A DNA stretch of 64,000 bases, taken from assembly GCA_025465475.1 (NCBI GenBank), contig JAODMR010000108.1, forward strand, positions 1 through 64,000, in the 5' to 3' direction. The notes beneath the pieces were generated by a model. It worked only from the letters and a program-made list of their open reading frames with translations, was not told the origin of the DNA and did no database searches. The stretch is from Micrococcaceae bacterium. GTDB taxonomy: Bacteria > Actinomycetota > Actinomycetes > Actinomycetales > Micrococcaceae. Position numbers and translations under genes: made by a program. Position 1 is the stretch's first letter. Every line of letters starts with the position of its first letter. This document shows, one piece after another, positions 5,999 to 22,175 of this stretch.

Positions 5999-7240
5999 AT
6001 GACCGTCTTCGGTGAACTGCGGATGAGTGCTGCGTTGCCCGACGCTGCTTCCCGCCGCGGGTGGGATGCGTCGGTGACCGCCCGGCTGGTCCTTGCCGGC
6101 GTCGTGATCTTCACGCTCCTGGTGGGAGCAAATTTGGCCACGCCACTGTATGCGCTGCTCCAGGCCCAGCTCGGACTGGGCCCACTGGCCATTACCGTGG
6201 CCTTTTCCAGCTATGTACTTGCCCTGATTTCCGGCCTGCTGCTGTTCGGCCATTGGTCCGACCACATTGGCAGGCGCGCGGCCCTGCTGCTCGCCGTGAT
6301 CACCGGTCTTTGCGGGGGCATCGTCTTTGGCACGGCCGACAGCCTGGCGGGTCTCTGCGCGGGCAGGGCCCTCCAGGGGCTGGCCGTGGCACTGGCAACC
6401 GGCGCAAGTTCCGCTGCCCTGCGCGACCTGCTGCCGACGCGCCCGGAATGGGCCTCACGATTCACGCTGTTGTCCTCCGCCGGAGGCGTGGCGGCCGGCC
6501 CGGTGCTGGGCGGGCTGTTGTCCCTGCTGCCCGATCCAACCCGGACCCCCTTCCTGGCCCATACTGCTGTCCTCGCGACGCTGCTGGTGCCGCTGTTCGT
6601 GCTCAAGGCCCGCCCCGCCGTCCGGCCCTCCGTGCCCGGCGCTGCCCTGACCTCCCTGAAGCCGCGCCGCCTGGCCGTCTCCCGCGAGGCCCGGGGGTCG
6701 TTTTGGATGGCGGCTTCCGTGGGCTTCCTCAGCTTTGCGGTTTTTGGTTTCTGCCTCTCCCTGGCACCTGGCTATTTCGCCTCGATTGTGCACGCGAACT
6801 CTCGGCCGCTTGTGGGGCTGCTCGCCGCTCTGACCCTCGCGTCCTCGGCGCTGAGCCAACTGCTGCCGGTGCGTGGGCGCTTCCTGGTTCCAGCGGGTTT
6901 GGCAGTTTTGGGTTGCTCCCTGGTGCTGCTGGCTGTCGCCGGGACCGTGCAGAGCCCTTGGTTGTTGGTGCTGGCATGCCTCACCGCCGGGGCGGGCCAG
7001 GGGGTGGCCTTCCGGGTGGTGTTCAACGAGGTGGCGGGCAAGGTGGAGCCGGCCAAGCATGCCCAGATCATCAGCGCCGTGTACGTCATCACCTACCTTG
7101 GCAGCGCCCTGCCGGTGCTCGGGTTGGGAGCCGCTGCCGGCAGCTTCGGCCTCCCGACGGCGGTGCTGGCCTTCGTCGCCCCGGCCGCTACGGCGTGCCT
7201 GGCCCTGGCGGCTTTGGCGCTACGGCGCGGCCGAGGCTGA
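5999..7240 (+). CDS. MFS transporter
   Basis: MTVFGELRMSAALPDAASRRGWDASVTARLV...GHWSDHIGRRAALL with 12-TM character; start chosen at 5999 in the 982-aa open frame. Confidence 0.88.
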   Translation: MTVFGELRMSAALPDAASRRGWDASVTARLVLAGVVIFTLLVGANLATPLYALLQAQLGLGPLAITVAFSSYVLALISGLLLFGHWSDHIGRRAALLLAVITGLCGGIVFGTADSLAGLCAGRALQGLAVALATGASSAALRDLLPTRPEWASRFTLLSSAGGVAAGPVLGGLLSLLPDPTRTPFLAHTAVLATLLVPLFVLKARPAVRPSVPGAALTSLKPRRLAVSREARGSFWMAASVGFLSFAVFGFCLSLAPGYFASIVHANSRPLVGLLAALTLASSALSQLLPVRGRFLVPAGLAVLGCSLVLLAVAGTVQSPWLLVLACLTAGAGQGVAFRVVFNEVAGKVEPAKHAQIISAVYVITYLGSALPVLGLGAAAGSFGLPTAVLAFVAPAATACLALAALALRRGRG

Positions 7241-7322
7241 ACCGCAGGCACCCCTCGCGGCTTCCCTGCGAGGGCCGAGTGCCCGTCGCCGGGATTGATT
7301 GAAGGCAGCATAAAGCAACAAC

Positions 7323-7398
7323 TTGCAAAGAGACGGCTGCAAAGGAACATTTGCAAAGACGTCTTTGCAAAGGGGTCTTTGCAAGAGTAGTCTGCAAG
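7323..7398. repeat. Six-copy 14-bp-periodic TGCAAAG direct repeat / operator array
   Basis: TGCAA starts at 7324, 7338, 7352, 7366, 7380 and 7393; includes the palindrome CTTTGCAAAG. Confidence 0.85.
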
Positions 7399-7399
7399 T

Positions 7400-8020
7400 A
7401 TGACATCGCAGGATAGTTTCCCCGTACGGACGGTGGACATGGTGGCGTTGAAAGCGCTCGCCCACCCTCTGCGGATCAGCATCCTGGAACTGCTGTCCCG
7501 CCATGGATCCCTGACGGCCGCAGGACTCGCGGAGCTGTTGGATGAATCGACGGGCTCGACCAGCTATCACCTGCGCCAGCTCGCCAAGCACGACTTTGTC
7601 GTGGAGGTCGAGGGAAAAGGCACCGCTCGGGAACGCTGGTGGGAAAGACCCAAGGGTGCGCTGGAAATATCCACCCGCGACCTGGCGGAAAACCCGGCCA
7701 GCCGCGAGGCCGCCCGGATCGTCGCGGCCAGCTTTGAGGAAAGCCGCGCAGCGGCGCTTCACGACTTCCTGCTGCACGGGTACGACGTGTTGCCCGCTGA
7801 GTGGACTGACGCGGCAACCATCAGCACCACCAACGCCCGCCTGACGGCGAACCAGTTGACGTCCTATGTGGAGTCGATGGAGCGCTTCAGTCGCCAGCTT
7901 CTGGAGGAACTGCGCGCCGGCGGCGAACAGGACGGGTCCCGCCCGGTCCAGCTCCACCTGAATGCCTTTCCCCTGATCAGCCCCATCCGTATCGCATCGA
8001 ACGCAAAGGAACGGTCATGA
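7400..8020 (+). CDS. ArsR-like winged-helix transcriptional regulator
   Basis: MVALKALAHPLRISILELLSRHGSLTAAGLAELLDESTGSTSYHLRQLAKHDFV. Confidence 0.9.
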   Translation: MTSQDSFPVRTVDMVALKALAHPLRISILELLSRHGSLTAAGLAELLDESTGSTSYHLRQLAKHDFVVEVEGKGTARERWWERPKGALEISTRDLAENPASREAARIVAASFEESRAAALHDFLLHGYDVLPAEWTDAATISTTNARLTANQLTSYVESMERFSRQLLEELRAGGEQDGSRPVQLHLNAFPLISPIRIASNAKERS

Positions 8021-8211
8021 CCACATCCAACCGCCGGCCCGCACGTCGCCCCGGCATCGCCGCCGCACTGGCTGACACCGCAGGTGCTGCCCTGCAAACC
8101 TGGGCCAGCCGGCGGGAAGCAGCCTCAACGGAAGCCCTGCTGTACCGCGCAGCGCTGGACGAGCGCCGGGAGAGGGAAGGTGCAGCGATGCACGACGGGT
8201 TGTTCCGCTAG
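8017..8211 (+). CDS. small hypothetical protein (64 aa), translationally coupled to the ArsR-like gene
   Basis: ATGA overlap with the upstream stop; ORF MTTSNRRPARRPGIAAALADTAGAALQTWASRREAAS... Confidence 0.6.
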   Translation: MTTSNRRPARRPGIAAALADTAGAALQTWASRREAASTEALLYRAALDERREREGAAMHDGLFR

Positions 8212-21031: not shown

Positions 21032-22120
21032 ATGACCACAGCCGCTGTTTCCGTTCCCATGCCTGCCGTTCCACGCCGTCGGCGTGCGCCGGCAGACGTA
21101 ACGGCCGCGGCCCCTGTGATTGGCACCAAAAAGGTTTTGCTGGCCGCCCCGCGCGGTTATTGTGCTGGCGTTGACCGTGCCGTCGTGGCCGTCGAAAAGG
21201 CCCTGGAGCATTACGGGCCGCCCGTCTATGTGCGCAAGCAAATCGTGCACAATGTCCACGTGGTCTCTTCCCTGGAGGCGAAGGGCGCCGTTTTCGTCGA
21301 TGAGACCGATGAGGTGCCGGAGGGCGCGCTGGTGATCTTTTCGGCCCACGGTGTCTCTCCCGCGGTCATTTCCACCGCCGCTGACCGTGGCCTGCGGACC
21401 ATTGACGCCACCTGCCCGCTGGTCACCAAGGTGCACCGTGAGGCCGTGCGATTCGCCCGGGATGACTTCGACATCCTCCTCATTGGCCACGAAGGCCATG
21501 AAGAAGTTGAAGGCACCGCCGGTGAAGCGCCCGAACACATCCAGATCGTGAACGGTCCCCAGGACGTGGACGCCGTACAGGTTCGGGATCCGGAAAAGGT
21601 CATCTGGCTGTCGCAGACGACCCTCAGCGTTGACGAGACCATGGAAACGGTGCGCCTGCTCAAGGACCGGTTTCCCACCCTGCAGGATCCCCCCAGCGAC
21701 GACATCTGCTACGCGACCACCAACCGCCAGGTCGCGATCAAGAAGATCGCACCGGCAGCCGACCTGGTGATCGTGGTGGGGTCAGCCAACTCCTCCAACT
21801 CGGTGCGGCTGGTCGAAGTGGCGCTGGAGTACGGAGCCAAGGCCTCCTACCGGGTGGACTTCGCAAACGAGGTCGACGAATCCTGGTTCGAAGGTGTGGC
21901 AACCGTCGGCGTCACCAGCGGTGCGTCGGTTCCAGAGGTCCTGGTGCAGGACGTGTTGCGTCTGCTGGCGGACTACGGCTACCAGGATGTGCAGGAAGTG
22001 GTCACCGCCGAGGAGGACCTGTTGTTCTCCCTGCCCAAGGAACTGCGCGCCACCCTGAAGCAGGCGGGCGATGCCAGCCGTGCCCTGGGCGGTCGGGGCC
22101 AGCGCCCCGTCTCCAGCTGA
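21032..22120 (+). CDS. ispH: 4-hydroxy-3-methylbut-2-enyl diphosphate reductase
   Basis: [47 protein letters not shown]. Confidence 0.97.
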
Positions 22121-22175
22121 GCCCCGTCTCCAACTGGCCCCGTCTCCAACTGGCCAGGATTAGGGTGCCCTGCGG

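Follow-up and report, generated by a model that had tools for sequence, protein, structure and literature searches.

In the window analysed here, a 64-kb stretch of DNA (64,000 nucleotides) from a Micrococcaceae bacterium, the regulator gene at 7400-8020 is preceded by an array of short repeated cores. We read this array, with a probability of roughly 0.85, as the operator of that regulator, fused to the promoter from which the regulator and a small ORF would be expressed as one operon, and likely to mediate cooperative autorepression. This reading was built from sequence comparison and combines several computed features: the array itself, its conserved pitch and register, the promoter-like spacing, the covariation of core and recognition helix, the co-occurrence of array and gene, and the way in which the array tracks the start of the operon.

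The TGCAA cores before the ATG at 7400 start at 7324, 7338, 7352, 7366, 7380 and 7393 (n = 6; spacing 14, 14, 14, 14 and 13), exactly where a first-pass annotation of this DNA had placed them. The same annotation had described all six as TGCAAAG; on the + strand this full form is present in four of the six copies, and the last two read TGCAAG. The inverted symmetry that it had noticed was borne out by a perfect 20-bp palindrome, TTGCAAAGACGTCTTTGCAA, at 7351-7370, which is the sole perfect dyad in the local array. We found TTTGCAAAG three times in the 64 kb when both strands were counted, each time inside the array, against an expectation of 0.16. Moreover, six TGCAA follow each other at steps of 13-15 bp in the window, whereas the longest such chain had 2 members when the full window was dinucleotide-shuffled 100 times and 3 members when the local 106 bp were shuffled 5000 times. 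The array is real and far beyond chance. The top-scoring array of the window is a different one, a 16-bp tandem repeat of 3.2 copies (GCCCCGTCTCCAACTG) at 22104-22155. A summary of all features of the locus can be found in Table 1.

Table 1. Features of the array locus in the 64-kb window; offsets are relative to the ATG at 7400.
Feature	Position	Strand	Remarks
Neighbouring MFS_1 transporter gene	5999..7240	+	Upstream of array; syntenic in Arthrobacter; outside array unit
Operator core copy 1 (TTGCAAAG)	7323..7330	+	-77
Operator core copy 2 (CTGCAAAG)	7337..7344	+	-63
Operator core copy 3 (TTGCAAAG)	7351..7358	+	-49; left arm of perfect palindrome 7351-7370
Operator core copy 4 (TTGCAAAG)	7365..7372	+	-35; TTGCAA at 7365-7370 also fits a promoter -35 box
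Operator core copy 5 (TTGCAA, then G)	7379..7384	+	-21; within promoter spacer
Predicted -10 box TAGTCT	7388..7393	+	17 bp past -35 TTGCAA; 6 bp before ATG
Degenerate core copy 6 (CTGCAA, then G)	7392..7397	+	-8; overlaps -10 box
Regulator, 206 aa, winged helix HTH_20/HTH_5	7400..8020	+	Predicted recognition helix at about residues 51-63; no cysteine
Small ORF, 64 aa	8017..8211	+	Overlaps regulator stop by 4 bases (ATGA); position conserved; no Pfam family

The regulated unit consists of a 206-aa, cysteine-free winged-helix protein together with a coupled small protein that is unclassified and has 64 aa in the window. The former passed the cut-offs for two winged-helix models, Pfam HTH_20 (PF12840; 43.1 bits, gathering cut-off 27) and the ArsR-type HTH_5 (29.6 bits, cut-off 22). 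The initial label of an ArsR-like regulator holds for the DNA-binding domain and not for the protein as a whole, which is about twice the usual size, stays below the cut-off of the NCBIfam metalloregulator model HTH_metalloreg (42.7 bits against 55) and has no cysteine metal-binding motif, there being zero cysteines in the 206-aa translation (only cysteine sites were looked for). In the AlphaFold2 model (pLDDT 85) the winged helix is joined by long C-terminal helices at residues 99-130 and 150-173. In fold, most of the chain was matched best by Kfla_6221 (PDB 4g6q) and PH1932 (PDB 1uly, 2cwe), with TM-scores of ~0.5 or lower and ~20% identity, and CadC and SmtB were found as further fold matches; the sequence search returned only Escherichia coli YgaV, over the HTH. 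The small ORF is arginine-rich and translationally coupled to the regulator, whose stop it overlaps by four bases in most orthologues, with a length of 64-88 aa. A Pfam search with it gave nothing above chance. Among 31 Microbacterium sequences, its rate of change was 0.48 at third codon positions, 0.25 at first and 0.22 at second positions, and this roughly two-fold higher variation at third positions indicates that the small ORF is coding.

With the core closest to -35 as the anchor of the alignment, the loci gave the consensus TTGCAA-N17-TATCTT, followed by ~6-7 bp to the start codon. The T and A of the -10 box (TANNNT) were nearly invariant across the aligned loci, with TATCTT as the Microbacterium consensus. 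In the window, a -35 box at 7365-7370, a spacer at 7371-7387, the -10 box TAGTCT at 7388-7393 and the ATG at 7400 follow each other in this order. The promoter predicted from consensus and conservation is that of the operon to which the regulator belongs, and the operator overlaps it. No Shine-Dalgarno-like stretch was visible before the ATG at 7400, so the regulator mRNA is probably leaderless. In Isoptericola, a small ORF stands ahead of the regulator gene, and the array lies in front of this ORF, 350-450 bp upstream of the regulator ATG; this location at the operon start, away from the regulator ATG, argues that the array belongs to the operon promoter.

We collected 80 relatives of the regulator from a scan of genome contigs, to which whole-genome searches added orthologues and paralogues. 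The same array was present upstream of nearly every orthologue. At first pass, homologous loci devoid of repeats had been named as evidence against a link with the regulator; with nearly all orthologues carrying them, the view of a multi-site operator of the adjoining winged-helix regulator, probably a cooperative one, is supported. At ~86 related loci (in Arthrobacter, Microbacterium, Humibacter and others), TTGCAAAG cores recurred every 14 bp in a fixed register to the start codon. Their positions were -77, -63, -49, -35, -21 and often -7 (or one base off) in Micrococcaceae, and -50, -36, -22 and -8 in most Microbacterium, with TTGCAT at -8. Column conservation was highest for the cores at -49, -35 and -21, where inward-facing AGAAA and TTTCT arms form a rough dyad centred on the -35 box. 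Base self-match in 86 upstream regions was 0.48 at lag 14 and 0.41 at lag 28 versus ~0.25 at most lags, and a coding-sequence control was flat, with no peak at lag 14. Even among relatives without a TTGCAA-type helix, an octamer was repeated at lag 14 in 18 of 35, and at any other lag in at most 7. The 14-bp pitch is not universal, since the subclass with a PSAMSYHL recognition helix (17 loci) gave no lag-14 repeat signal. One relative has TTGCAA cores 14 bp apart in an operator that is built as an extended inverted repeat (ATGCAAAGAACCCGTTGCAA...TTGCAACGGGTTCTTTGCAT).

The array was also closely tied to the regulator gene. In its own genome the pattern occurred only at this locus, bar one weak site with two mismatches; because this was the only other site, no regulon of the motif is visible in that genome beyond the local operon, and we rejected a widespread regulon. 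Across 58 related genomes, almost all pattern matches (at most one mismatch) lay before the orthologue, the exceptions being ~5 single one-mismatch sites, and congeners without the regulator were also without the array. Four other species of the genus have the MFS gene but no regulator. In two of these the MFS gene is followed by the second AsnC-type gene, and regulator, small ORF and array leave no trace. Because congeners can thus retain the MFS gene when both regulator and array are missing, we rejected it as an obligate partner. Even so, the regulator and small ORF are followed by an MFS_3 gene in some Microbacterium loci, and in a few other loci the gene immediately after the regulator is transporter-like. 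Of note, the whole unit (7241-8211 in the window) is either present or absent within the genus, and two congeners without the block keep both flanking genes. Between 4334 and 10093 the unit is flanked by CorA, two AsnC-type regulators and two MFS genes, in an order common to many Arthrobacter. A DNA search of plasmids gave two short, partial matches only.

Distant relatives in the Actinomycetota combine other recognition helices with other cores (TTGCAA, TTGCGCAA, TTTCGAAAG) while keeping the 14-bp pitch. We examined this covariation in 65 representatives, obtained by dereplicating the proteins at 70%, among which some relatedness remains. The TTGCAA core went with [ST]G-x-TSYHL-type helices in 19 of 31 versus 0 of 34 representatives (p = 1e-8), p-values here being optimistic and indicative because the loci tested were also those from which the core groups had first been defined. 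Likewise, the TTGCGCAA core was associated with PSLVSYHL- and PANSVSFHL-like helices (5/8 versus 2/57), and the TTTCGA core with P-x-x-CS[YF]HL helices (6/14 versus 2/51). That the core changes together with the recognition helix is evidence for recognition of the array by its own regulator.

From these features we infer direct binding, repression rather than activation, cooperativity, a leaderless start and a release signal. In the mechanism that we propose, the regulator would use its recognition helix to bind the TTGCAAAG sites, which are 14 bp apart, and the bound protein would cover the -35 box (site 7365-7370), the 17-bp spacer (site 7379) and the -10/start region (last site). Since the sites coincide with these promoter parts, their occupancy would block RNA polymerase. 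By simple arithmetic, three steps of 14 bp equal four helical turns, which would place successive proteins at a rotation of ~120 degrees. Repression might then be lifted by a ligand or a small partner protein, with the small protein of the operon or a transported compound as candidate signals. Binding for activation, or for activation together with repression, is also conceivable: several copies (-49 to -77) lie upstream of the -35 box, where activators bind, and could recruit RNA polymerase from there. However, two of the best-conserved copies (-49, -35 and -21) are inside the promoter, and upstream of it most Microbacterium arrays show no more than one clear copy; we consider activation improbable. 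It is less credible still that another, unlinked DNA-binding protein targets the array and that the neighbouring regulator is just one regulated gene, given that each genome has essentially one array, which goes with the regulator gene, that its core shifts with the recognition helix of this very regulator, and that genomes without the regulator gene also have no array.

A directly repeated constant unit could, in addition, be the product of recent tandem expansion with varying copy number, as the first-pass annotation had suggested, and such variation would then tune expression. The comparison between species contradicts this. Spacers at the same position were more alike across species than were the copies within one array, both in Arthrobacter (0.64 versus 0.48) and in Microbacterium (0.62 versus 0.52). 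All but one of the 17 Arthrobacter-group loci held 4-6 copies by strict count, and 40 of the 50 Microbacterium loci held four. This position-specific conservation and the stability of copy number within genera, next to the fixed register, argue against recent expansion and leave it with next to no probability. With a layout common to many actinobacteria and cores that differ in differently built relatives, the autorepressive operator looks like an old switch.

If correct, this reading would provide many actinobacterial regulators, a large group that is for the most part uncharacterised, with a compact operator architecture in which the pitch is constant and the core is set by the helix. Operators, and hence target genes, could then be predicted from protein sequence, and the arrays offer candidate orthogonal repressor-operator pairs. 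The locus further draws attention to the conserved small protein encoded in the same operon. More speculatively, and in our view doubtful as yet, there may be a phylum-wide ArsR-like subfamily with cooperative assembly along DNA at a fixed 14-bp pitch whatever the core sequence, interchangeable cores read by a few helix residues, and a co-translated small partner or anti-repressor.

An exact motif and concept search of the open-access literature found no published description of such arrays, which is weak evidence for novelty. The iterons of plasmid origins are direct repeats bound by the product of an adjacent gene, and the array described here likewise consists of direct repeats beside the gene of its putative binding protein. 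In contrast to iterons, it lies in a promoter and in register with a start codon, and no replication initiator gene was found among its neighbours (regulator, small ORF, MFS, AsnC-type regulators and CorA). ArsR/SmtB metalloregulators such as SmtB and CadC usually use one or two dyads. They share the winged-helix fold with our regulator, which differs by its 206 aa, absence of cysteine, extra C-terminal helices and tandem array. Kfla_6221 and PH1932 resemble it in fold over most of the chain despite their low identity, and the papers searched held no description of the operator of either. The nearest studied case that we found is Rv2034 of Mycobacterium tuberculosis, an ArsR-like autorepressor with a site at the start codon and a footprint from -30 to +3 (PMC3338718). 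Its operator is one 20-bp inverted repeat, CCGTAAGT-N4-ACTTACGG, and it binds more strongly to two half-sites than to one (PMC3338718). The ArsR-like winged helix, the site at the start codon and autorepression (which we propose here) are common to both systems, whereas the single 20-bp inverted repeat of Rv2034 contrasts with 4-6 cores at a 14-bp pitch. Altogether, autoregulation over an own promoter is already known, and the array of 4-6 sites with constant pitch and exchangeable core is a variant of it.
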